Shown: one piece after another, positions 858-50,214 of the stretch
How positions within the stretch are numbered: position 1 is the stretch's first letter
Layout of the letters: the number at the start of each line of letters is the position of its first letter
Assembly (NCBI RefSeq): GCF_947490405.1
Contig: NZ_CANLGU010000002.1
Coordinates: forward strand, 248,001-312,000
Direction of reading: 5' to 3'
DNA length: 64,000 bases
Source: an uncultured Algibacter sp.
Lineage (GTDB): Bacteria > Bacteroidota > Bacteroidia > Flavobacteriales > Flavobacteriaceae
Position numbers and translations under genes: made by a program
The notes under the pieces: model-generated
What the model saw: only the letters and a program-made list of their open reading frames with translations
Told to the model about the DNA's origin: nothing
The model's database searches: none

Positions 858-925
858 TTCAGTTTTTCAAATGGTAGGTAATGTTCCTTACGGATATCAA
901 ATCGTTTTAATGTTTTATATCCGAC

Positions 926-964
926 GTTAAACGAAGGTAGCAGAAATTTTTTACAAAGTCAAGA
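926..964 (-). repeat. Partial copy of the cassette 5'-flank repeat
   Basis: The segment upstream of the caspase gene resembles the outer end of the flanks at 10087-10124 and 24435-24472: all share an AAACGAA start, a T-rich middle and an ACAAA(G/T)TCAAG end, with the middle diverged. The promoter hairpin found in the other two flanks is not conserved here. This suggests that the caspase gene occupies the same kind of cassette site, but the match is short. Confidence 0.4.
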
Positions 965-2132: not shown

Positions 2133-2606
2133 ATGATAGAAATAGAACGAAAATTTTTAGTAACCTCTAAGGCTTATAAAACTGAAGCTTTAAGAAAAAC
2201 AAGAATTATTCAGGGGTATTTAAACTCTAATAAACAGCGTGCGGTTAGAGTTAGGTTAAAAGGCGAATTAGGCTATTTAACTATCAAAGGTGAATCTTCA
2301 AAAAATGGATTATCCCGATTTGAGTGGGAAAAAGAAATTACAAAATCTGAGGCTTTAGAATTATTAGATTTATGCGAACCAGGAGTTATTGATAAAATAC
2401 GTTACGAAATCAAGCTAGGAAATCATATTTTTGAAGTGGATGAGTTTTTTGGAGATAACACAGGGTTGGTAGTTGCGGAAGTAGAATTAAATGCAGAAAA
2501 TGAATCTTTTGAAAAGCCAAATTGGTTAGGTGAAGAAGTTACAGGGCAAGAGCCATATTATAATTCTCAATTAAGTAAGAAACCCTATAATACATGGACA
2601 TCATGA
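2133..2606 (+). CDS. CYTH domain protein (triphosphate tunnel metalloenzyme)
   Basis: 157 residues. It starts with the signature MIEIERKFLV (ExExK-type strand of the CYTH family) and continues with alternating charged strands (RVRLKGELGYLTIKG, FEVDEFFG, LVVAEVELN) that line the triphosphate tunnel. Family members hydrolyse inorganic triphosphate or nucleoside triphosphates; the short bacterial forms with no extra domain are usually triphosphatases rather than adenylate cyclases. The exact substrate cannot be read from sequence. The stop codon overlaps the ATG of the next lipoprotein gene (ATGA), which suggests translational coupling. Confidence 0.9.
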   Translation: MIEIERKFLVTSKAYKTEALRKTRIIQGYLNSNKQRAVRVRLKGELGYLTIKGESSKNGLSRFEWEKEITKSEALELLDLCEPGVIDKIRYEIKLGNHIFEVDEFFGDNTGLVVAEVELNAENESFEKPNWLGEEVTGQEPYYNSQLSKKPYNTWTS

Positions 2607-3163
2607 AAAAATCAGCATTAGTCTTACTATTAATTTCGTTCTTTTTTGGTTGTAAACAAGAATCAAAAACGATGTTACCTGACAAAGGAGAAACCGTTAA
2701 AGCGGTTTCAAATGAAGAAGTTAAAGATTCAATGGTCGCTCAATCTAAAAACGTTATTGAGAAAGCTGTTCCGAAAACAATAAAACAAATTAAAGAAGAG
2801 CTCAATGCAAAAGGTTACAAAATTTTTGATTATGTTGATGAAGAAACTAAAGATACTGTTTTAATGCAGCAATATTTTATGGCATTTTTAAAAAAAGGAC
2901 CTATTCGTGGGCAAAATGAAGAAGAAGCTGCCGAACTACAGAAATTGCATATGGCACATTTAAAAAAAATGTATGCTTTAGGTTATGCAGATATTTCTGG
3001 ACCTTTTGGAGATGATGGTAATATGAGAGGAATAACTATATACAATGTACCAACTCTTAAAATGGCAGATAGTTTAGCAAATTCAGATCCTATGGTTATT
3101 GCTGGAAGATTAGAAATAGAAATTCATCCTTGGTGGGCTGGTAAAGGATTTCCTTTAAGATAG
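2603..3163 (+). CDS. Lipoprotein with YciI-like domain
   Basis: I place the start at the ATG at 2603 (MKKSALVLLL), which gives a clean lipoprotein signal ending in FFFGC; an ATG nine bases earlier would add MDI inside the CYTH gene. The mature protein has a charged linker and then, from about residue 85 on, features of the YCII family: ADSLANSDPMVIAGRLEIEIHPW near the C-terminus. YCII domains adopt a dimeric alpha-beta barrel fold; most have no proven reaction. Being anchored to an envelope membrane is unusual for that fold but common in flavobacteria. Overlaps the CYTH gene by 4 bases and is followed after 3 bases by the EEP gene, so the three form an operon. Confidence 0.8.
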   Translation: MKKSALVLLLISFFFGCKQESKTMLPDKGETVKAVSNEEVKDSMVAQSKNVIEKAVPKTIKQIKEELNAKGYKIFDYVDEETKDTVLMQQYFMAFLKKGPIRGQNEEEAAELQKLHMAHLKKMYALGYADISGPFGDDGNMRGITIYNVPTLKMADSLANSDPMVIAGRLEIEIHPWWAGKGFPLR

Positions 3164-3166
3164 ATA

Positions 3167-4045
3167 ATGTTGGAGTTTATTAAAACCTTTTTACAGCGAA
3201 TTAATATTATAGTAATCATCGGGTTACTCTTGATTCATTTTGTATTAAAAGAAAGCAATTATGTTTTTTCTCTACTATATTATACTTTCCCCATACCCAT
3301 TATTATTGTAATCACAGTTTTTTTATCTCTCTTTCAAAAAAAGAAAATAAGAACCTATAATTTAATCCTTGCGTTAGTTTTACTAGTGATTTGGTTTGGA
3401 AGAAGCTTTAAAATAAATACGCCAGAAACGATTCATGAAACAGATATAGAAGTGGTATTTTGGAATGCCACCCACAAAAGAGAATTTAAAGATGTATTTG
3501 ATAAGGTGGATAATTTACCAGATGTTGTGGTTTTGGTAGAATATCATGCGGTGGAATTGGCTAAACTAAAGCTTAAGTTTCCAAATTGCTTTTACTATTG
3601 GCATGATGATAGTGAAATTGGTATATTTTCAAAAAAACATATTGATATAAAGCAGGTGTTTATCTCTGAAGATGAAACAGTAGTGATTAATTTTACCTCG
3701 CACAGACTTAATTTTTATGCTATTGATGTAGCATCTAGCATGACCGTTTTTAGAAAAAATCAAATAGCCTTTGTTCAAGAATGTATTGAATCAGATAAAA
3801 AAACTATTCTTCTAGGGGATTTTAATACACCTCTAGAATCAAAATTTTTAAAGGATATTAAAAATAATTTCAATCATGTCTTAACAGAAAAAGGCAATGG
3901 TTTTAGAGAAACCTGGTTTTGGAATATACCGCTTTTATCTCTGGATCATATTTGGGTTTCTAAAGATTTAGATATTTTAAATGCAGAAAAAATCGGAACA
4001 TTTAAGTCGGATCATAGCATGATTAAAGCGGTTATTAAGCGATGA
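3167..4045 (+). CDS. Membrane-anchored endonuclease/exonuclease/phosphatase (EEP) family protein
   Basis: 292 residues. Three hydrophobic segments in the first 85 residues, then an EEP domain: VVFWNATHKR (substrate-pocket Asn), VVLVEYH (metal-binding Glu), LLGDFNTP (catalytic Asp and Asn), SLDHIWVS and FKSDHSMI (catalytic Asp-His). The core residues of the DNase I-like fold are thus present, so the protein is probably an active phosphodiesterase or phosphatase facing the periplasm or cytoplasm. The substrate cannot be told; family members cut nucleic acids, phosphoinositides or sphingomyelin. It is the last gene of the CYTH-lipoprotein-EEP operon. The following 215 bases hold no gene. Confidence 0.85.
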   Translation: MLEFIKTFLQRINIIVIIGLLLIHFVLKESNYVFSLLYYTFPIPIIIVITVFLSLFQKKKIRTYNLILALVLLVIWFGRSFKINTPETIHETDIEVVFWNATHKREFKDVFDKVDNLPDVVVLVEYHAVELAKLKLKFPNCFYYWHDDSEIGIFSKKHIDIKQVFISEDETVVINFTSHRLNFYAIDVASSMTVFRKNQIAFVQECIESDKKTILLGDFNTPLESKFLKDIKNNFNHVLTEKGNGFRETWFWNIPLLSLDHIWVSKDLDILNAEKIGTFKSDHSMIKAVIKR

Positions 4046-4260: not shown

Positions 4261-6141
4261 ATGTTTAAACATTCTTTAGTATTATTTTTATTATTACTAA
4301 CAGATTTATCTTTTGGTCAGATTGTTTTGATACAGACCCAAAGTGATGCTACAATAGGTCTTGATAGAAAAGCTTGGGCTGGTTTAGGTAATACATCTCC
4401 ACTTAGTGATGGTTATGCACATGACTTCTCATTACCTGCAAGTACAATTTCCTGTCAACAAATTACTGGTATAGAAATCGAAATAAGTCTTACCAATTAC
4501 ACTAATAATAATGCTTGCCCTCATTTTGAAACGTACTATAATCTATTTTATGGATGTACTTCATATGCTGGTGGTGCAACGTGTTTGCCAGCTACTAATT
4601 TGATAGCTGAGCCTAATTACCCTGTAAATGTAAACCCCGCACCGTTTAATTTTGGAAACCCTTTAGGCAGCCCTGTTAACCCTAATATAGCACCAGATTT
4701 TGGCGAAAATTTAAGTATAGATATCATACCAGTTTCTAATCCTGGTTGTAATCCAGTAACTAATGGGCATATAAGTTATCAGTACACCATAACAGTTACT
4801 ATTACTGTTACAGATACAACGCCTACCGAACCAACTACACCATTAGAATGCTGGGAAACAAGAAGTTTTGATAACATAGCATGTGATTGGATTGTAACAG
4901 GTACGCAACCCACCCAACCTAACACAGCATGTTGGGAAACGGTAAATTTTAATAATAACACTTGTATGTGGGAGGTATCAGGAACACAACCTACACAGCC
5001 TGCTTTAGAATGCTGGGAAACAGCAAGTTTTAATTCAATTAGTTGTGCTTGGGAAATAACAGGCACTCAACCTGCCCAACCCAATCTTGAATGTTGGGAA
5101 ACAGCAACATTTAATAATATCACCTGTTCTTGGGAAGTCGTTGGCAATCAACCAGCACAACCTACTTTGGAGTGTTGGGAGACTGCAACGTTTAATAATA
5201 CAACTTGTGCTTGGGATGTATCTGGGTCTCAACCTGTTCAGCCTACATTAGAATGTTGGCAAACAACACTATTTAACACCATGACCTGTTCTTGGGATAT
5301 TTCTGGAATGCAACCGCCAGAACCCACAACAGCGTGTTGGGAAACAGCACTATTTAACACTATAATTTGCGATTGGGAAGTTACAGGAACACAACCTGCG
5401 CAACCTAATTTGGAATGTTGGCAAACAGCATCATTTAACGAAACAAATTGTTTATGGGAAGTTGAAGGGACACAACCTGGGAATATCATTGAAACGTTTG
5501 TAAATTTCTGTCCTAATGACGACAAACAATTAACAGCACAAACAGATATACCTAATCCAAGTTATTTATGGAGCAATGGAGAAATAACGGAAAGCGTTGA
5601 AATAGCAGCAGAAGGCACTTATACGGTTGAAATAAGCGGTGGTATTTGCTCTTTTGAAACCAGAATTTTTGATGTAAGTATTTTAGAAACACCAATGATT
5701 GAATCTATTGAATCTGATGGAAGAAACATAATTGTTAATATCTCAAATCCGGGTAATGTTCAATATTCATTAAATGGTAACACATTTCAAAATAATAATA
5801 CATTTTTTAATATTGAAGGTGGTTTATATACAATTTCAGTAAGAGAAGCAAATTGTATTGAAACTGTCACCGCAGAGCATTTGCACTTTTATATTCCGAA
5901 GTTTTTCACGCCTAATAATGACGGGGTAAATGACACGTTTAATTTAGGTGGCATAGCATTTTTCTCATCGTCTGAAGTATCAATTTTTAATAGATACGGA
6001 AAACTCATGAAATATTCGAGAAACAGTGTCTTTAGTTGGAATGGAACACTTAGAGGGCAAAATCTTCCCTCAGACGATTATTGGTATGTTATTATTTTAG
6101 AAGGGCAAAAATTCACGGGTCACTTTACCTTGAAGCGTTAA
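4261..6141 (+). CDS. Secreted repeat protein with T9SS type B sorting domain
   Basis: 626 residues. A signal peptide (MFKHSLVLFLLLL..LSFGQ) leads into about 170 residues of beta-rich sequence with paired cysteines, then a Thr/Pro hinge, eight tandem CWET repeats (residues 197 to about 407), one Ig-like segment (YLWSNGEITESVEIAAEGTYTVEIS), and a C-terminal gliding-motility-associated domain (FFTPNNDGVNDTF, SIFNRYGKLM, DYWYVIILEG) ending at the stop. The last domain is the type B signal for type IX secretion, so the protein is exported to the cell surface or medium, where it is probably an adhesin. Its stop overlaps the stop of pbpC on the other strand by 4 bases. Confidence 0.92.
   Translation: MFKHSLVLFLLLLTDLSFGQIVLIQTQSDATIGLDRKAWAGLGNTSPLSDGYAHDFSLPASTISCQQITGIEIEISLTNYTNNNACPHFETYYNLFYGCTSYAGGATCLPATNLIAEPNYPVNVNPAPFNFGNPLGSPVNPNIAPDFGENLSIDIIPVSNPGCNPVTNGHISYQYTITVTITVTDTTPTEPTTPLECWETRSFDNIACDWIVTGTQPTQPNTACWETVNFNNNTCMWEVSGTQPTQPALECWETASFNSISCAWEITGTQPAQPNLECWETATFNNITCSWEVVGNQPAQPTLECWETATFNNTTCAWDVSGSQPVQPTLECWQTTLFNTMTCSWDISGMQPPEPTTACWETALFNTIICDWEVTGTQPAQPNLECWQTASFNETNCLWEVEGTQPGNIIETFVNFCPNDDKQLTAQTDIPNPSYLWSNGEITESVEIAAEGTYTVEISGGICSFETRIFDVSILETPMIESIESDGRNIIVNISNPGNVQYSLNGNTFQNNNTFFNIEGGLYTISVREANCIETVTAEHLHFYIPKFFTPNNDGVNDTFNLGGIAFFSSSEVSIFNRYGKLMKYSRNSVFSWNGTLRGQNLPSDDYWYVIILEGQKFTGHFTLKR
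4849..5481 (+). repeat. Eight tandem 81-base coding repeats (CWET repeats)
   Basis: Eight copies of a 27-residue unit of the form CW(E/Q)Ta.FN...C.W.v.GtQP.qP. Each copy has two Cys, two Trp and a QP-rich spacer. Copies differ at synonymous and non-synonymous sites, so the array is not a recent expansion. The two Cys per unit could make one disulfide per repeat. Confidence 0.95.
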
Positions 6142-8897: not shown

Positions 8898-8993
8898 TTG
8901 GGCGTTACCACAAGGGTCGGGCTTTCCGTTACAAGTCCTCGCTTCTGCGCTAGGGCGCAAAAGCTGTGGGCTATCCACTGCAATCCCTAACGC
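8898..8993 (+). repeat. Dispersed hairpin element, copy 1 of 5
   Basis: Starts with TTGGGCGTTACC, then a GGGTCGGGCTTTCC arm, and ends with ATCCCTAACGC. The tip is a small hairpin TGCGC-TAGG-GCGCA. Copy 5 (46677-46772) is the closest relative: it shares the arms CCGTTACAAGTCCTCGCT and AGCTGTGGGCT but has an unrelated, equally self-complementary tip. From 8991 to about 9064 the sequence also matches the region after copy 2, as part of the cassette flank. Confidence 0.9.
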
Positions 8994-9064
8994 GGGTTAT
9001 CTGCTAACTTGTTTTTTAAAATTAGAGTTGGATTTATTTTTGGAGAGGTTCGTTTAGCGTTTAT

Positions 9065-9168
9065 GTATAAGATTAGTGGCTTGTTTAAGCACCTAATTTA
9101 GCCAATAAACACCAGATAGAAAATCCGCGAGGACTAGCCATTAATTTTATATGGTGTTGTACACAGTA
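9065..9168. other. Long imperfect inverted repeat next to the cassette payload (attC-like)
   Basis: Arm 9065-9081 (GTATAAGATTAGTGGCT) pairs with arm 9136-9152 (AGCCATTAATTTTATAT) at 14 of 17 positions, and the site ends in GTTGTACACAGTA at 9156-9168. The stop codon of the PIN gene begins two bases later. The second cassette has the same GTTGTACACAGTA at 23808-23820 but lacks the long hairpin. The size and folded shape recall integron attC sites, although the exact attC core GTTRRRY is not matched. Confidence 0.5.
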
Positions 9169-9169
9169 T

Positions 9170-10036
9170 TTATTCTAACTCGTCTGTGTCGAATACTGTT
9201 AAATTCGCTAGTTGAGCTTTATTTTGTAGATTGATATCCGATGTTACGAAAATTACGCTGTCTCCAGGATAGCAAATCTGTAATTCTAAAGCATTAGCTA
9301 TAATTCTGTCATCATTATTTTTGGAATCAATCCAGCTTAAAGTTTTTTCAAAATTTGGTTCAGTTGCAATCATTTTTACCGTAATTGTTTTGTTTACAGT
9401 AACACCATCTAATACATTTCCTTGTTTTCTATATCCTTTTAACCTCTTGATTACAGAGGTGACTTTTTTTCGAAAGTCATCATTTCTGTGGGTCATTTTA
9501 TGTTTGTCTAACTCGGATAGAATTGTTGGTAAAATGATAAAGTCAAATTTTTCTGTTGAAGAAATGTTAGAATAGGTTTTAGGTTCAGGATATTGGATTA
9601 TAGAATTTGTATCGGGTAAGATTATCGTTTTATTAGATTCACTGCTTAAAAGTTTTAAGAAGTCTTTAAAAGTTTGTGTTTGCTTTCTATAATAGCTTTT
9701 TCCATTTTCTATTGAAGATGGCGCTCTATTTTGTTCAATCAGGTTGATAATCCAATTATTTACTTCTTTTATTTTTCTTTTAGTACTAGGATTTGCTTTG
9801 TCGATTAGAAGATTAAAGTTACTATAGAAATCAAGGTACTTACTTTTAGCTTTAATCTGATTCTTTTCATCTTTTTTGTCCCAATGATATGAGCTTGCTC
9901 CTATAACTAAAACGTTGCTATTTGCATTTATGTCGTGATAATAAATAGAAGAATTGTCTAACATTTCATCTATAATAAGTCCGATATTATCAATTTGCTC
10001 CTCAAGCTTTTCTATGTAGGACAGGTTTTTGTTCAT
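9170..10036 (-). CDS. PIN-domain ribonuclease-like protein (cassette payload)
   Basis: 288 residues. The C-terminal half is a PIN domain of the PIN_4/PhoH-associated kind: Asp142 in ILPDTNSIIQ, Glu175 in LPTILSELDKHK, Asp242-Asp243 in NNDDRIIANAL and Asp267 in VTSDINLQNKA, the full acidic set of an active nuclease. Residues 1-135 are helical and not recognised. No antitoxin-like partner lies beside it, so a classical toxin-antitoxin pair is unlikely; a stand-alone defence or RNA-processing role is possible. Both ends of the gene are bordered by sequence repeated at the COQ4-like gene, so it is probably a mobile single-gene cassette. Confidence 0.85.
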   Translation of the reverse strand: MNKNLSYIEKLEEQIDNIGLIIDEMLDNSSIYYHDINANSNVLVIGASSYHWDKKDEKNQIKAKSKYLDFYSNFNLLIDKANPSTKRKIKEVNNWIINLIEQNRAPSSIENGKSYYRKQTQTFKDFLKLLSSESNKTIILPDTNSIIQYPEPKTYSNISSTEKFDFIILPTILSELDKHKMTHRNDDFRKKVTSVIKRLKGYRKQGNVLDGVTVNKTITVKMIATEPNFEKTLSWIDSKNNDDRIIANALELQICYPGDSVIFVTSDINLQNKAQLANLTVFDTDELE

Positions 10037-10041
10037 ATTGT

Positions 10042-10124
10042 TTACAACGCAAAGATAAAGTTCCGTTTCAATGAACTTTATCGATTGTCAAACGAATTTA
10101 TCATTTTTTTCTGACAAAGTCAAG
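10042..10124 (-). promoter_or_regulatory. Conserved cassette 5' flank with promoter (copy A)
   Basis: 82 bases (10043-10124) match 24391-24472 with three mismatches. On the minus strand the flank carries the Bacteroidota -7 box TATCTTTG (10050-10057) 13 bases before the PIN start codon. It also holds a perfect 10-bp inverted repeat, GATAAAGTTC / GAACTTTATC, with a 9-base loop, one arm of which contains part of the -7 box. The same promoter is therefore supplied to two unrelated genes. Confidence 0.8.
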
Positions 10125-10153: not shown

Positions 10154-10196
10154 ATTCCTGCTTTACTGAAACAAGTTCAGCACAAGTCGCAGGAAT
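10154..10196. repeat. Short GC-rich inverted repeat after the macroglobulin gene
   Basis: ATTCCTGC at 10154-10161 pairs with GCAGGAAT at 10189-10196, with an inner CTGAA/TTCAG stem. It lies 4 bases beyond the macroglobulin stop and could end its transcript, but no U-run follows. It belongs to the same GATTCC(C/T)GC family as 27018-27035 and 30135-30215. Confidence 0.5.
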
Positions 10197-22457: not shown

Positions 22458-23648
22458 ATGGACAGAAGAAAATTTTTAAAACAATCCTCTCTAGCAAGTA
22501 GCCTATTTTTTGTGCCTAGTTTTGTTAGAGCCTTTGAGGAAGTAGCAAGTAGTAAGTTAGGTTATAAACGCTTAGTAATTATTCAACTCTCTGGCGGTAA
22601 TGATGGTTTAAATACCGTTGTACCTTATAGAAACGATTTGTATTATAAAGCGCGTCCAAATCTGGGGTTATCGCAAAACGAGATTATAAAATTAAATGAT
22701 AATGTAGGTTTAAATATCAATTTAGCACCATTAAAACGCCTTTACGATAAAGGTTACGTATCCATAATCAATAATGTGGGATATCCAAACCCTATTCGCT
22801 CGCATTTTAGATCAATGGACATTTGGCAAACGGCCTCAGATTCTAATCAATATTCACAAAGTGGGTGGATAGGGCGTTATTTAGATAATTATGGCAAACA
22901 ATCTCATAGTGCTATTGAGATAGATGATAGTTTGTCGCTAGCTATGAAAGGCGAAAGCATGAATGCTATAGCAACAAAAGATGCAAAAACCATGTACAAC
23001 TTATCAAAAGGGCCTTATTTAAAAAATATAAATAAGCACTTGGCAGACGAGCATTTAAGCGAGCATAATTTGGGGTATTTGTATAAATCTATGATAGCAG
23101 CAGAGTCGTCTGCAAAATATATTTACGAAACCACCAGAACCGTAGTTAGTAAAAAAGAATACCCAAACACTAAGTTTGGTAAGCAAATGAAAACTACAGC
23201 ACAATTTATAAATTCTCATTTAGATACCAAGGTGTTTTATACCTCACTGGATGGTTTTGATACGCACGTAAACCAAAAAGGCGCACAAAAAAAACTATTA
23301 CAAACCTACGCAGAAAGTGTGGAAGCTTTTGTAGAAGATTTAAAAGCGAATAACACATTTAAAGACACTTTAATTTTAACATTTTCTGAGTTTGGGCGTC
23401 GTGTAAATCAAAATGCTAGTGTAGGCACAGATCATGGTACAGCTAATAATGTTTTTATAATAGGCGAAAATTTAAAAACACAAGGGCTTTACAATAACAT
23501 GCCAAACCTTGGCGATTTAGACGATAATGGTGATTTAAAATTCGAAATAGATTTTAGAGCCATATATGCCACCGTTTTAGACAAATGGCTAGAGGTAGAC
23601 GACAAAAAAGTATTGAACAAATCCTTTAGTCAACTCAATTTTATTTAA
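22458..23648 (+). CDS. DUF1501 domain protein with Tat signal
   Basis: 396 residues. A twin-arginine signal (MDRRKFLKQSSLASSLFF) marks export in folded form. The domain belongs to the alkaline-phosphatase/sulfatase-like fold: VIIQLSGGNDGLNTVVP, HFRSMDIWQTA, SLDGFDTHVNQ, TFSEFGRRVNQNAS.GTDHGTAN, which include the metal-binding Asp/His set. It forms an operon with the DUF1800 gene. The stop codon is followed six bases later by a dispersed hairpin element. Confidence 0.92.
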   Translation: MDRRKFLKQSSLASSLFFVPSFVRAFEEVASSKLGYKRLVIIQLSGGNDGLNTVVPYRNDLYYKARPNLGLSQNEIIKLNDNVGLNINLAPLKRLYDKGYVSIINNVGYPNPIRSHFRSMDIWQTASDSNQYSQSGWIGRYLDNYGKQSHSAIEIDDSLSLAMKGESMNAIATKDAKTMYNLSKGPYLKNINKHLADEHLSEHNLGYLYKSMIAAESSAKYIYETTRTVVSKKEYPNTKFGKQMKTTAQFINSHLDTKVFYTSLDGFDTHVNQKGAQKKLLQTYAESVEAFVEDLKANNTFKDTLILTFSEFGRRVNQNASVGTDHGTANNVFIIGENLKTQGLYNNMPNLGDLDDNGDLKFEIDFRAIYATVLDKWLEVDDKKVLNKSFSQLNFI

Positions 23649-23654
23649 AATAAC

Positions 23655-23740
23655 TTGGGCGTTACCCGCAAGGGGTAGGGCTTTCACTAGTCGCTCCTCC
23701 TTAGGTCGGGAGCTCCAACATGCCGTTCAATCCCTAACGC
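23655..23740 (+). repeat. Dispersed hairpin element, copy 2 of 5
   Basis: TTGGGCGTTACCC start, GGGTAGGGCTTTCAC arm, GCTCC/GGAGC tip stem, and TCAATCCCTAACGC end. It begins exactly six bases (AATAAC) after the DUF1501 stop codon. The 65 bases that follow (to 23805) match the region after copy 1, including GTTTTTTAAA and TTCGTTTA(A/G)CGTT, so the element is joined to the cassette 3' flank in both places. Confidence 0.9.
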
Positions 23741-23797
23741 GGGCATATTTGCTAGCTAAGTTTTTTAAATATACTTTGTTGAATTTTTGGAAGTTTC

Positions 23798-23820
23798 GTT
23801 TAACGTTGTTGTACACAGTA
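23798..23820. other. Cassette 3' junction, copy B
   Basis: GTTTAAC at 23798-23804 followed by GTTGTTGTACACAGTA. The same GTTGTACACAGTA occurs at 9156-9168 beside the PIN gene. The payload stop codon begins three bases downstream. The inverted form TTGTACACAATAA occurs on the other side of the gene (about 24384-24396), so the payload is bracketed by inverted TTGTACACA motifs. Confidence 0.6.
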
Positions 23821-23823
23821 TTT

Positions 23824-24372
23824 TTATTTCAATATAAATGTCAATCCAATTCCGATAGCAATAAGTGGAAAAAGAAAAATGATTTGACTTGTCATTATCC
23901 AAAATAGAAATTTAATGAACTGTAGAGCATTCATTTCCGTAATTTTTTCCTTTTTTGTGATTTTAACAAGTTCGGAATATTCCATTTTCATAAAGTTAGA
24001 CTTGCTGATTTTCAAGTCGATTATTCCAATTTCATTAATTCCTTTTTTATATCCATTAAAAACAGATTTCGGGTAAATCCAGAAACTGTAACCCATAGCC
24101 CATAAACTCAAAAAACCTAATTGAAAATGTTTCCAAATTCCCGTAGAAATTTCCCAACCAGCTATAAATCCTTCTCCTTTCCAAGAAGTATCACAATTAT
24201 TCAAAATATGTTGAATGTCGTGAATATGTAATGCTTCTCTTCTGAATTTTGGATTAGGTAAATTTAATTTTAACCCAAACACTTTAAATTCAAAGGTTTC
24301 ATCGTCAATTCCTCCATCTTTTGGAATTCCGTTTTTGATATAAAATTCGGTTAATAATTTATCCAATGTCAT
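23824..24372 (-). CDS. COQ4-like membrane protein (cassette payload)
   Basis: 182 residues. Residues 51-67 read HDIQH, eleven residues, then Glu, an exact fit to the HDxxHx11E zinc motif of COQ4, a protein of ubiquinone synthesis; the preceding LPNPKFRREALHI and following GFIAGWEIST are compatible with that fold. A hydrophobic segment near residue 85 and a strong C-terminal helix (FLFPLIAIGIGLTFIL) suggest membrane attachment. Flavobacteria use menaquinone, so a role in ubiquinone synthesis is unlikely and the true function is unknown. The gene sits between flanks shared with the PIN gene. Confidence 0.7.
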   Translation of the reverse strand: MTLDKLLTEFYIKNGIPKDGGIDDETFEFKVFGLKLNLPNPKFRREALHIHDIQHILNNCDTSWKGEGFIAGWEISTGIWKHFQLGFLSLWAMGYSFWIYPKSVFNGYKKGINEIGIIDLKISKSNFMKMEYSELVKITKKEKITEMNALQFIKFLFWIMTSQIIFLFPLIAIGIGLTFILK

Positions 24373-24390
24373 TTTTCGTGGGTTATTGTG

Positions 24391-24472
24391 TACAATGCAA
24401 AGATAAAGTTCCGTTTCAATGAACTTTATCGATTGTTAAACGAATTTATCATTTTTTTCTGACAAATTCAAG
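24391..24472 (-). promoter_or_regulatory. Conserved cassette 5' flank with promoter (copy B)
   Basis: Matches 10043-10124 at 79 of 82 positions. Carries the -7 box TATCTTTG on the minus strand (24398-24405), 25 bases before the COQ4-like start, and the same perfect 10-bp inverted repeat. The outer end is TGACAAATTCAAG. Confidence 0.8.
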
Positions 24473-41331: not shown

Positions 41332-41384
41332 GAGCTTGCAAAAATTACTTTATAAGAATATAGAGTTGAATTTTATTTGGTATT

Positions 41385-41469
41385 GCGTTAGGGATTGAAA
41401 CGGCATCCTTTTTTGCTTTTTCTGCAAAAAAGATATAGTGAAAAGCCCGACCCTTTGGGTAACGCCCAA
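41385..41469 (-). repeat. Dispersed hairpin element, copy 3 of 5
   Basis: Read on the minus strand it starts TTGGGCGTTACCC, has a GGGTCGGGCTTTTCAC arm, a perfect CTTTTTTGC/GCAAAAAAG tip stem and a TCAATCCCTAACGC end. It lies between the carbonic anhydrase stop and the SbtA terminator. Confidence 0.9.
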
Positions 41470-49096: not shown

Positions 49097-49576
49097 ATGG
49101 GATTGTTTTCATTCAAAAAAAATGTTGGAATTAAAATATTTGAAGGTGAAAAGACAGTTATGTTAGTAGCTATTGAAACTGGAATGGAAAAATTCGAATT
49201 TGAAAACTCTGCCGCAAAAAAATTAGAAAGCATCATTGAAAGCTTGCAATTACATGTTGAAGATCTAAATATTTTTATAGATACTGATGTTGCGGTGGTT
49301 TCTGGTTTAGCTCACGATCAAGCCACAAAGGAAAAAGTTGTTTTAGTTGTAGGAAACTCAAATGGTATTTCTACTGTTGATGACTATATGACTGTAAAAA
49401 ATGAAGCGTCTGCTGCTCAATTTTACACAGTGCGTAATGGGGATACCCTCAAAAAAATTGCTGAAGTTTATTATGGTAATACAATGAATTACTCTATTAT
49501 TTTTGAAGCAAACAAGCCTATGCTTAATCATCCAAATGATATATATACGGGTTTAGTGCTAAGAATTCCTGCTTAA
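49097..49576 (+). CDS. BON-LysM protein (Kbp-like), diverged first paralogue
   Basis: 159 residues. Same layout as the next gene: short N-terminus, BON domain (residues 40-90; VVSGLAHDQATKEKVVLVVGN) and C-terminal LysM (FYTVRNGDTLKKIAEVYYGN). Compared with its neighbour the N-terminal region (KNVGIKIFEGEKTVMLVAIETG) has changed the most and has lost the Ala-rich helix. E. coli Kbp (YgaU) with the same two domains binds K+ and acts in stress. Possible specialised copy. Confidence 0.88.
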   Translation: MGLFSFKKNVGIKIFEGEKTVMLVAIETGMEKFEFENSAAKKLESIIESLQLHVEDLNIFIDTDVAVVSGLAHDQATKEKVVLVVGNSNGISTVDDYMTVKNEASAAQFYTVRNGDTLKKIAEVYYGNTMNYSIIFEANKPMLNHPNDIYTGLVLRIPA

Positions 49577-49728: not shown

Positions 49729-50214
49729 ATGGGACTATTTTCATTTATTAAAAATGCAGGAGCAAAAGTGTTTGGTATTGGTAAAACTGATGCTGAAGAG
49801 GTTGCAGAAGCAGCAGCAAAAGCATTAAAGTTAGAGGAAGCTGCTGCAAGAAAACTTGAAGAAACTATTACTGATTTACAACTACAAGTTGAAGGTTTAA
49901 ATGTTTTTATTGATAATGATGCAGCTACTGTTTCTGGTATGGCTTACAATCAAACAACAAGAGAAAAAGTGGTTTTAGTTATTGGTAACTCAAATGGTAT
50001 TGCAACTGTTGATGACCAAATGACTGTAGAACATGAAGCGCCTGCAGCTCAATTTCACACTGTAGTAAGTGGTGACACTCTAGGGAAGATAGCCAAAGCA
50101 TATTATGGGAATGCCATGAAATACCCTGTTATTTTTGAAGCAAATAAGCCTATGTTGACTGATCCAGATAAAATTTATCCTGGTCAGGTATTAAGAATCC
50201 CAACACTAGATTAG
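49729..50214 (+). CDS. BON-LysM protein (Kbp/YgaU-like)
   Basis: 161 residues. Starts MGLFSFIKNAGAKVFGIG, Ala-rich helix, BON domain (ATVSGMAYNQTTREKVVLVIGN) and LysM (FHTVVSGDTLGKIAKAYYGN) ending in PGQVLRIPTLD. Closest in form to the widespread Kbp family, potassium-binding cytoplasmic proteins. It follows its paralogue after 152 bases and has its own terminator. Confidence 0.92.
   Translation: MGLFSFIKNAGAKVFGIGKTDAEEVAEAAAKALKLEEAAARKLEETITDLQLQVEGLNVFIDNDAATVSGMAYNQTTREKVVLVIGNSNGIATVDDQMTVEHEAPAAQFHTVVSGDTLGKIAKAYYGNAMKYPVIFEANKPMLTDPDKIYPGQVLRIPTLD

Follow-up and report, generated by a model that had tools for sequence, protein, structure and literature searches.

The window, a stretch of 64,000 nucleotides from an uncultured Algibacter sp. 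(contig NZ_CANLGU010000002.1 of assembly GCF_947490405.1; the own genome, G000, comprises 3.69 Mb in 23 contigs), contains two genes that lie between common flanking sequences, namely a gene for a PIN-domain protein (locus A) and a gene for a 182-aa protein (locus B), and a further copy of the flanking structure near its left edge. The features of these loci are given below in window coordinates. Scores refer to R1, a covariance model of the docking site built from 34 own-genome copies, and to R2, an attC model built from 28 sequences, to which own docking loci contributed 17 and arrays none; the docking copies of loci A and B are amongst the 34, and the attC copy of locus A is amongst the 28.

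883..963, minus strand: third docking site (R1 88.9 bits); its cassette, a caspase-domain gene (PF00656, E 1.4e-18), runs off the left window edge to C2:247490
8911..9057, minus strand: locus A docking tail CTAAACGAACCTCTCC..TTTTAAAAAAC..AGCAGATA, then Flavo-1-type hairpin GCGTTAGGGAT..GTAACGCCC (RF01705 29.6 bits, below the gathering score of 42)
9056..9168, minus strand: attC-like hairpin, 3' end of the locus A cassette (R2 90.5 bits, E 1e-16)
9058..10047, minus strand: locus A cassette, bounded by G|TT (docking site) and G|CTAAACGAA (tail); start GTTGTAAAC against its own R'' box ..GTGTACAAC, 5/6 variable bases
9170..10036, minus strand: locus A cassette gene, 288 aa, PIN domain (ORF; PF13638 E 5.3e-17)
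10044..10124, minus strand: locus A docking site, presumed promoter TTGACTTTGT..N..TAAATTCG and attC-like hairpin (R1 74.0 bits; 89-nt repeat)
10087-10096, minus strand: R''-type box TTCGTTTGAC of the locus A docking site
23646..23803, minus strand: locus B docking tail and dispersed hairpin (L088), kept in the relative G007 with a different cassette; no Rfam match listed
23804..24395, minus strand: locus B cassette; start ATTGTACACA against R'' TGTGTACAAC, 6/6; 20-nt 3' end
23824..24372, minus strand: locus B cassette gene, 182 aa (ORF; no Pfam family at E <= 0.1)
24392..24472, minus strand: locus B docking site, presumed promoter and hairpin (R1 78.5 bits)

A repeat search of the 64-kb window yields an 89-nt direct repeat of 96% identity (10036-10124 and 24384-24472), and the common 5' flank postulated for the two genes in the original prediction is therefore real. 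On the 3' side, the predicted common stretch GTTTTTTAAA ... TTCGTTTAgCG/AACG as well as the dispersed hairpin were found at both loci. The site GTTGTACACAGTA, which had been placed next to the payload stop codons, is indeed present there in exact form (9156-9168 and 23808-23820), and the prediction had not connected it with the mirror sites of the same type on the minus strand at the 5' ends of both genes (10036-10048 and 24384-24396). With up to two mismatches, there are six sites of this kind in the window as compared to 1.36 expected, a number reached by 0 of 100 shuffles. The R'' box of the locus A attC is the complement of the GTTGTACACAGTA copy at 9156-9168, and GTTGTACACAGTA recurs at both loci because in each of the two window cassettes it is complementary to the R'' box. 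The proposed "-7" promoter box TATCTTTG exists as a sequence but lies inside the docking hairpin, and TTGACTTTGT...TAAATTCG just upstream is the better promoter candidate, as judged by what we take to be the Bacteroidota consensus. Of the two gene labels, PIN holds (PF13638, 5e-17), and "COQ4-like" for the 182-aa protein is unsupported (best Pfam E 0.14). The window also harbours an 81-base tandem repeat of 8 units (4843-5490), with 162-nt stretches 62-72% alike to the first, and a 300-nt direct repeat of 77% identity (49244-49543 and 49876-50175).

The flanking structure, here termed docking site, consists of a promoter running into a small attC-like hairpin with the complementary ends TTCGTTTAAC/GTTAAACGAA. 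In order, and read in gene orientation, there is TTGACTTTGT..N..TANCTTCG, presumably the promoter by the same consensus, then TTCGTTTAAC, and then a hairpin of the form GGATATAAGTC..GACGCATATCC or GATAAAGTTC..GAACTTTATC, the pairs of which hold over the 34 copies. Downstream of the hairpin, GTTAAACGAACC.. either follows directly (empty site) or is preceded by an insert (filled site), and in filled sites the cassette begins at G|TT of GTTAAAC. When G000 was searched at the DNA level with a different 5' flank copy, 43 pieces aligned at E <= 1, some of them two per site, and the motif TTCGTTTAACGTY with at most one mismatch has 64 matches in this genome versus 37 for the reversed control, many of them being boxes that face each other at a distance of about 0.6-2.7 kb, or of about 60-85 nt end to end without a gene. 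R1 finds 43 matches in the own genome and is matched in 20 of 98 relatives. Counting the own genome, 21 of 60 genomes of the same family are positive, as opposed to 0 of 39 genomes of other families; within the genus, 8 of 9 relatives have 7-37 matches (35 in G007 and 37 in G008), and one, G003, has none. With the repeat itself, the site counts in shuffles, the reversed control and the distribution of R1, a chance origin of these repeats was rejected. A stricter docking pattern, used to scan named genomes, found 12 stretches in records named Algibacter, Flaviramulus multivorans and Wocania ichthyoenteri; it had no match in viral contigs, a weak result given that the same pattern hits only these 12 stretches in genome contigs.

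Empty docking sites are present in G000, G007 and G008; their two R boxes are separated by about 50 nt. The flanks are not mostly without a gene, as empty copies are the minority (5 seen in the own genome), nor are they confined to the two genes of the window, being found around many different ones. In the docking hairpin, 93.8% of cells are paired and there are 27 double-change cells versus 6.8, a number reached in 0 of 500 shuffles, but these double changes fall in only 3 of the 8 pairs, which 367 of the 500 shuffles also attain; compensating changes thus keep the docking hairpin, though in only 3 of its 8 pairs. Individual sites depart from the general layout in several ways. The loop of several docking hairpins, e.g. 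L074, L106 and L114, contains an insert of 22-24 nt (~CTGTGCTGAACTTGTTTCAGTAT), and a similar motif lies also beside locus A at about window position 10162-10183. Three docking sites stand in tandem, filled, empty and filled, with near-identical promoter flanks at L091 (G000 C2:667357-670103), and in G008 the same position has two docking sites with other cassettes. The cassette at L084 (G000 C2:220710-221623) has its docking hairpin remnant next to the tail instead of next to the promoter.

Downstream of the gene, most of the inserts have an attC-like 3' end, which reads R''-type box ending in AAC, AA(T/C)G, an arm TGTATAA..ATTGC, a variable middle, the opposite arm GCAAC..TCATACA, and finally ..CG|TT. 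Integron cassettes require that the bases directly following G|TT be complementary to the R'' box of the same cassette. This relation was examined in all 41 inserts from G000, G007 and G008 that extend 150 nt or more past the docking hairpin and for which a tail was recognised. At least 5 of the 6 variable bases match in 36 of the 41 cassettes, all six in 31, whereas 5000 re-pairings gave a mean of 5.55 and a maximum of 15 such cassettes; total matches amount to 223 as compared to 141.3 (sd 5.9) in the re-pairings. Five of the 41 fail as scored, one of them (L091) through a wrongly chosen start, and with the start read by eye this cassette fits its own R'' box. Covariation of the attC arms was analysed in 28 of the 41, the others being too short, too long, off the start test or excluded by hand. 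In these sequences 94.1% of cells are paired versus 78.3, there are 60 double-change cells versus 16.4 (sd 3.4), and the covariation score is 0.354 versus 0.077, each of these values being reached by 0 of 500 shuffles; two coarser covariation counts were reached by 12 and 6 of 500 shuffles, respectively, and slid controls of the arms pair at most to 38%. When four attC hairpins were folded individually, their stability exceeded that of shuffles only mildly (z -1.4 to -2.5). Taken from sequence comparison, the identification of the inserts as integron-type gene cassettes is strongly supported.

With respect to coding content, a frame of at least 60 aa that runs with the docking promoter is present in 37 of the 41 inserts and missing from four. 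In one of these four, L082 (G000 C2:159090-160853), long frames run against the docking promoter with the attC in its usual direction; one of its frames has, by eye, an HTH-like stretch. A Pfam scan of 30 proteins from own-genome docking loci, which represent part of the frames, revealed AAA/OLD, AAA_21 together with RloB, caspase, Fic, PIN, GrpB and GNAT families, and further a serine hydrolase of the beta-lactamase fold, metallo-beta-lactamase together with polysaccharide deacetylase, SDR, LRR and several DUFs, with 8 of the 30 having no Pfam match at E 0.001. Amongst 10 proteins chosen for PADLOC, matches were obtained to AriA/GajA-like proteins, AbiLi and AbiLii, caspase and SoFic, and five proteins matched nothing. 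Given the OLD/GajA-like and AbiL-like ATPases and the caspase, Fic, PIN, GNAT and serine hydrolase payloads, the slots may carry phage defence among other things.

The common 3' flank of filled and empty sites represents a docking tail, which usually includes a Flavo-1-type hairpin (RF01705). A stricter tail pattern recognised a tail in 55 of 69 sites of G000, G007 and G008, a few of which are false (e.g. L111, L217 and L222). In 33 of these 55 tails GCGTTAGGGAT is present with one mismatch allowed, 52-86 nt past the exit box in 32 of them and at 365 in one, and 30 of the 33 also have the GTAACGCCC end; the remaining 22 tails lack the hairpin. RF01705 itself matches the tail above the gathering score in 6 of 10 docking loci and below it in two, locus A being scored below; no match is listed at L088, i.e., window locus B, and at L106, where the tail is near the edge of the locus, the match, likewise above the gathering score, lies elsewhere in the locus and not in the docking tail. 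The hairpin may be a candidate terminator. Flavo-1 RNA thus matches the dispersed hairpin of the docking tails but occurs also away from docking sites, e.g. at window 41380-41456, where RF01705 scores above gathering and R1 finds no docking site beside it. The phrase "Flavo-1 RNA" had no match in a search of the open-access literature.

A comparison with relatives shows that what stands between the flanks is replaced at orthologous positions. At locus A the site holds the PIN gene in the own genome, a two-gene insert in G007, another gene in G008 and a 1096-aa gene in G004; G002 has no docking site there, and G005 and G009 only a tail-like remnant. At locus B the site is occupied by the 182-aa gene in the own genome, by a 316-aa gene in G007 and by an 834-aa gene in G004, and G001 has a 233-aa gene at a weak docking match (29 bits); the site is absent in G002, G005 and G009. 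Hence the content of both window loci differs in every relative in which the site was found, which bears out the idea of the original prediction that single genes are swapped as cassettes between fixed ends.

For a broader view, 23 regions around docking matches of G007 and 16 of G008, which contain part of the 35 and 37 R1 matches of these genomes, were compared with the own genome, resulting in 30 site pairs that are orthologous on the promoter side (33 rows, of which 3 are repeats). The flanks of orthologous sites are 75-98% identical, and the inserts are unrelated or a filled site faces an empty one. Only one of the 30 pairs has kept its cassette (L096/L219, a 4.3-kb match at 91.7%) and one is empty in both genomes (L081/L228). 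Of the other 28, 26 were compared by insert blastn and longest-frame blastp (three pairs by blastp alone; L075/L213 and L104/L222 were left out), and in none of the 26 is a payload gene common to the pair. By reading, 17 of them have different genes, five are filled here and empty there, two are filled here with a gene-less insert there, and two are empty here and filled there, one of the latter without a gene. Likeness within the 26 pairs is limited to attC parts and flank remains, e.g. 181 nt at the attC end of L094/L231, and of the two blastp matches one covers 13 residues in tiny frames, the other being due to a chromosomal neighbour of a site that the own genome has empty. At L091/L226, for instance, the flanks are 98.8% and 96% identical with no similarity inside, and the 2.4-kb insert of L094 is opposed to an empty site in L192 and to another insert in L231. 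For a cassette of L105, G008 has a relative of 73% at a site that is not orthologous. Some inserts without an open frame occur in nearly identical form at two docking sites of one genome, namely one of 278 nt (box to box) at L196 and L199 of G007 and another of 173-177 nt at L221 and L225 of G008; they may represent an RNA gene or a mobile unit reduced to an attC. On the basis of these alignments, cassette swapping at fixed sites is strongly supported.

Conserved flanks around differing inserts are also what would be expected if DNA that had been taken up were exchanged by homologous recombination between the flanks, as happens at ordinary hotspots, with no site-specific enzyme being involved. 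That docking sites themselves can recombine is suggested by L224 of G008, where the promoter-side flank of locus A is joined to the tail-side flank of the site at window 883 and the intervening 8 kb are missing, as if two docking sites had recombined. However, such allelic exchange does not predict insertion at (G/A)|TT in many unrelated sites, the complementarity of each start to its own R'' box, covarying attC arms, or arrays with the same attC near a recombinase, and we therefore regard it as improbable. Even less credit can be given to a passenger-gene transposon, in which a transposase would move a MITE-like element or mobile insertion cassette with TTCGTTTAACG...CGTTAAACGAA as its terminal inverted repeats. 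This reading accommodates the many dispersed copies, the inversion of the ends around a single gene and the existence of copies that lack a gene and measure about 60-85 nt end to end; it was the initial one and was dropped on account of the empty sites and the orthologous swaps. The ends do not move with their content but remain in orthologous positions while the content changes, and conservation extends past them, to the promoter beyond the left end and to the tail beyond the right end. The cassette start pairs with a box in the cassette's own 3' end, for which a transposon with terminal inverted repeats has no need. Accidental off-target insertions from a decayed integron at attG-like genomic sites, as known for IntI from the available parts of published work, are just as improbable an explanation, as the 43 R1 matches have promoter and hairpin in common, the examined sites share the start of the tail, and sites also exist empty.

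What the original prediction missed is that the ends are integron-type recombination sites, that the system is genome-wide, and that there are candidate integrases and multi-cassette arrays elsewhere in the genome. R2 has 77 matches in the own genome, about 30 of which coincide with own docking loci by reading of the coordinates. Runs of 11, 11 and 9 matches are found at C1:598-8748, C9:768-9821 and C3:195377-201807, respectively, with smaller groups besides. None of the 12 Phage_integrase matches of the genome adjoins these longest arrays. Two IntI-like recombinases, the top scorers of six proteins compared with the integron-integrase profile, lie within 3.6 kb of contig starts and have R2 matches in their vicinity: on C7 there are three at 73-1647 and the gene at 2421-3539, the contig edge cutting the locus, and on C4 there is one at 76-209, about 1.5 kb from the gene (1733-2884) and likewise at the contig edge. 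In G007 the closest relative of the C7 recombinase (L215, C6:50000-66000) is 92-95% identical and comes in two overlapping pieces, one with an internal stop, which adjoin an array of seven attC matches (E below 1e-11). Cassette arrays adjoining an IntI-like gene are thus found on C7, on C4 and at L215.

Both IntI-like proteins belong to the tyrosine recombinases (PF00589, E 8e-37 and 1e-39) and HTLRHSFPTHLL..LGHSSPKTTMIYTH in the recombinase translation corresponds to what we take to be the HxxR..H..Y motif. Against TIGR02249 (integron integrase) they score 191.9 bits (C7) and 175.7 bits, below the curated cut-off of 265, and against the XerA profile 210.7 and 200.5 bits, which does not reach the cut-off of 220. 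Both have about 100 extra N-terminal residues, match the integron-integrase profile in two stretches and lack the additional domain (insertion) of IntI; in the alignment of the C7 protein to IntI4 (2a3v), the two matching stretches are separated by 30 residues as compared to 73 in IntI4, and this protein scores higher against XerA-type PDB chains than against IntI4. Among relatives, 24 of 29 fetched IntI-like loci entered the R2 test, and 14 of these have an R2 match within 1.5 kb (E < 1e-3), the other 10 having none nearby at this threshold; around the other tyrosine recombinase loci of the own genome, R2 matches were found in 0 of 7. Relatives of the recombinase occur on plasmids, and a Chryseobacterium plasmid has two R2 matches beside one. 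The recombinase nearest to a docking site (L119, C7:198244) was rejected as the integrase, as it fits best as XerC (294 bits, below the 335-bit cut-off). At E <= 1e-40 the recombinase is present in 18 of 21 genomes with docking sites, the own one counted, and absent from three, and it is present also in 41 of 78 genomes without them; its distribution therefore appears to be wider than that of the docking sites, which seem to have been added later within part of the family.

From these data a variant of the integron can be proposed for the Bacteroidota, and we consider it very likely that a recombinase inserts single cassettes into dozens of dispersed, promoter-bearing docking sites. Loci A and B would be two of dozens of fixed sites across the chromosome, each being composed of a promoter that leads into a short attC-like hairpin and of a conserved tail often ending in a Flavo-1-type hairpin. 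The enzyme, a tyrosine recombinase from the IntI/XerA group for which the IntI-like proteins are the candidates, would insert a circular cassette, composed of one or a few genes together with an attC hairpin of its own, at G|TT of the docking GTTAAAC box, a folded single strand presumably being the substrate, and insertion in one attC orientation would allow the promoter of the site to read and drive the cassette. Excision would occur as well: a cassette could later leave or be replaced because the docking hairpin flanks it upstream and its own attC downstream. In line with this, the locus B cassette, which has no R2 match and of whose attC only the R'' box joined to the exit site remains, should be frozen in place because its attC hairpin is lost. 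Cassettes might be supplied by the multi-cassette arrays, some of them near a recombinase gene, and by other cells. We further lean, if only slightly, towards a distributed integron, in which a recombinase lineage outside canonical IntI and without its insertion would act on folded sites and exchange single cassettes between arrays and dispersed slots; if this is true, many cassettes would be expressed in parallel, and not only the first ones of one array.

Several of these elements are familiar from other systems. Mobile insertion cassettes and MITEs with a passenger gene have short inverted ends around one gene and empty copies, as is the case here; however, in the genomes compared here the ends stay and the content changes. 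Cassettes away from an integrase are known from CALINs, i.e., attC clusters without integrase, and from attG insertions, the latter known to us through citing papers and as general background; in contrast to both, one cassette per slot is the rule here, and there is a conserved receptor with promoter and tail that is also found empty. In the parts of the literature available, attG refers to genomic sites (PMC12901181), PMC11023631 refers to Loot et al. 2024, CALIN origins are treated and Bacteroidota listed amongst the phyla with integrons (PMC8618304), and IntegronFinder 2.0 by default reports a CALIN only from two attC upwards (PMC9024848). The large survey contained in the same source finds complete integrons in Bacteroidetes proper only in Salinibacter, as far as the part considered goes, and PMC2426708, likewise in part, describes intI genes in the Bacteroidetes/Chlorobi group, selected by the additional domain or patch, as well as single-flank insertions at secondary sites. 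A term search of PMC8352920 found none of Bacteroid-, Flavobacter- or Algibacter. In the open literature, covered by titles and abstract starts with few subscription papers and no preprints, nothing was found on dispersed promoter-bearing docking sites, nor, within the same scope, on Flavobacteriaceae integrons of the dispersed-slot kind.

The closest known counterpart is the sedentary chromosomal integron with its IntI, attI and attC array, with which the system described here shares the 3' attC hairpin, the G|TT crossover, the complementarity of the cassette start to its own R'' box and the multi-cassette arrays, IntI-like recombinases being found near two cassette groups. The integron as outlined in part in PMC9024848 has a single platform with a promoter near attI, from which the closest cassettes are the likeliest to be expressed. 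In contrast, there are dozens of dispersed slots here, each with a predicted promoter and an attC-like hairpin as receptor; the recombinase is without the IntI insertion, no attI was identified, and at the dispersed loci the role of receptor falls to the docking site. These slots could explain many of the gene differences between close relatives in these genomes, and the docking sites give a simple way to read which genes were swapped. They also raise the question of whether folded attC sites can be recombined by an enzyme that lacks the IntI insertion. Judged from its sequences, the system thus appears to be integron-like with dispersed one-slot platforms, and a marine flavobacterial genus would thereby show another layout of the integron, consisting of many single slots instead of one array.
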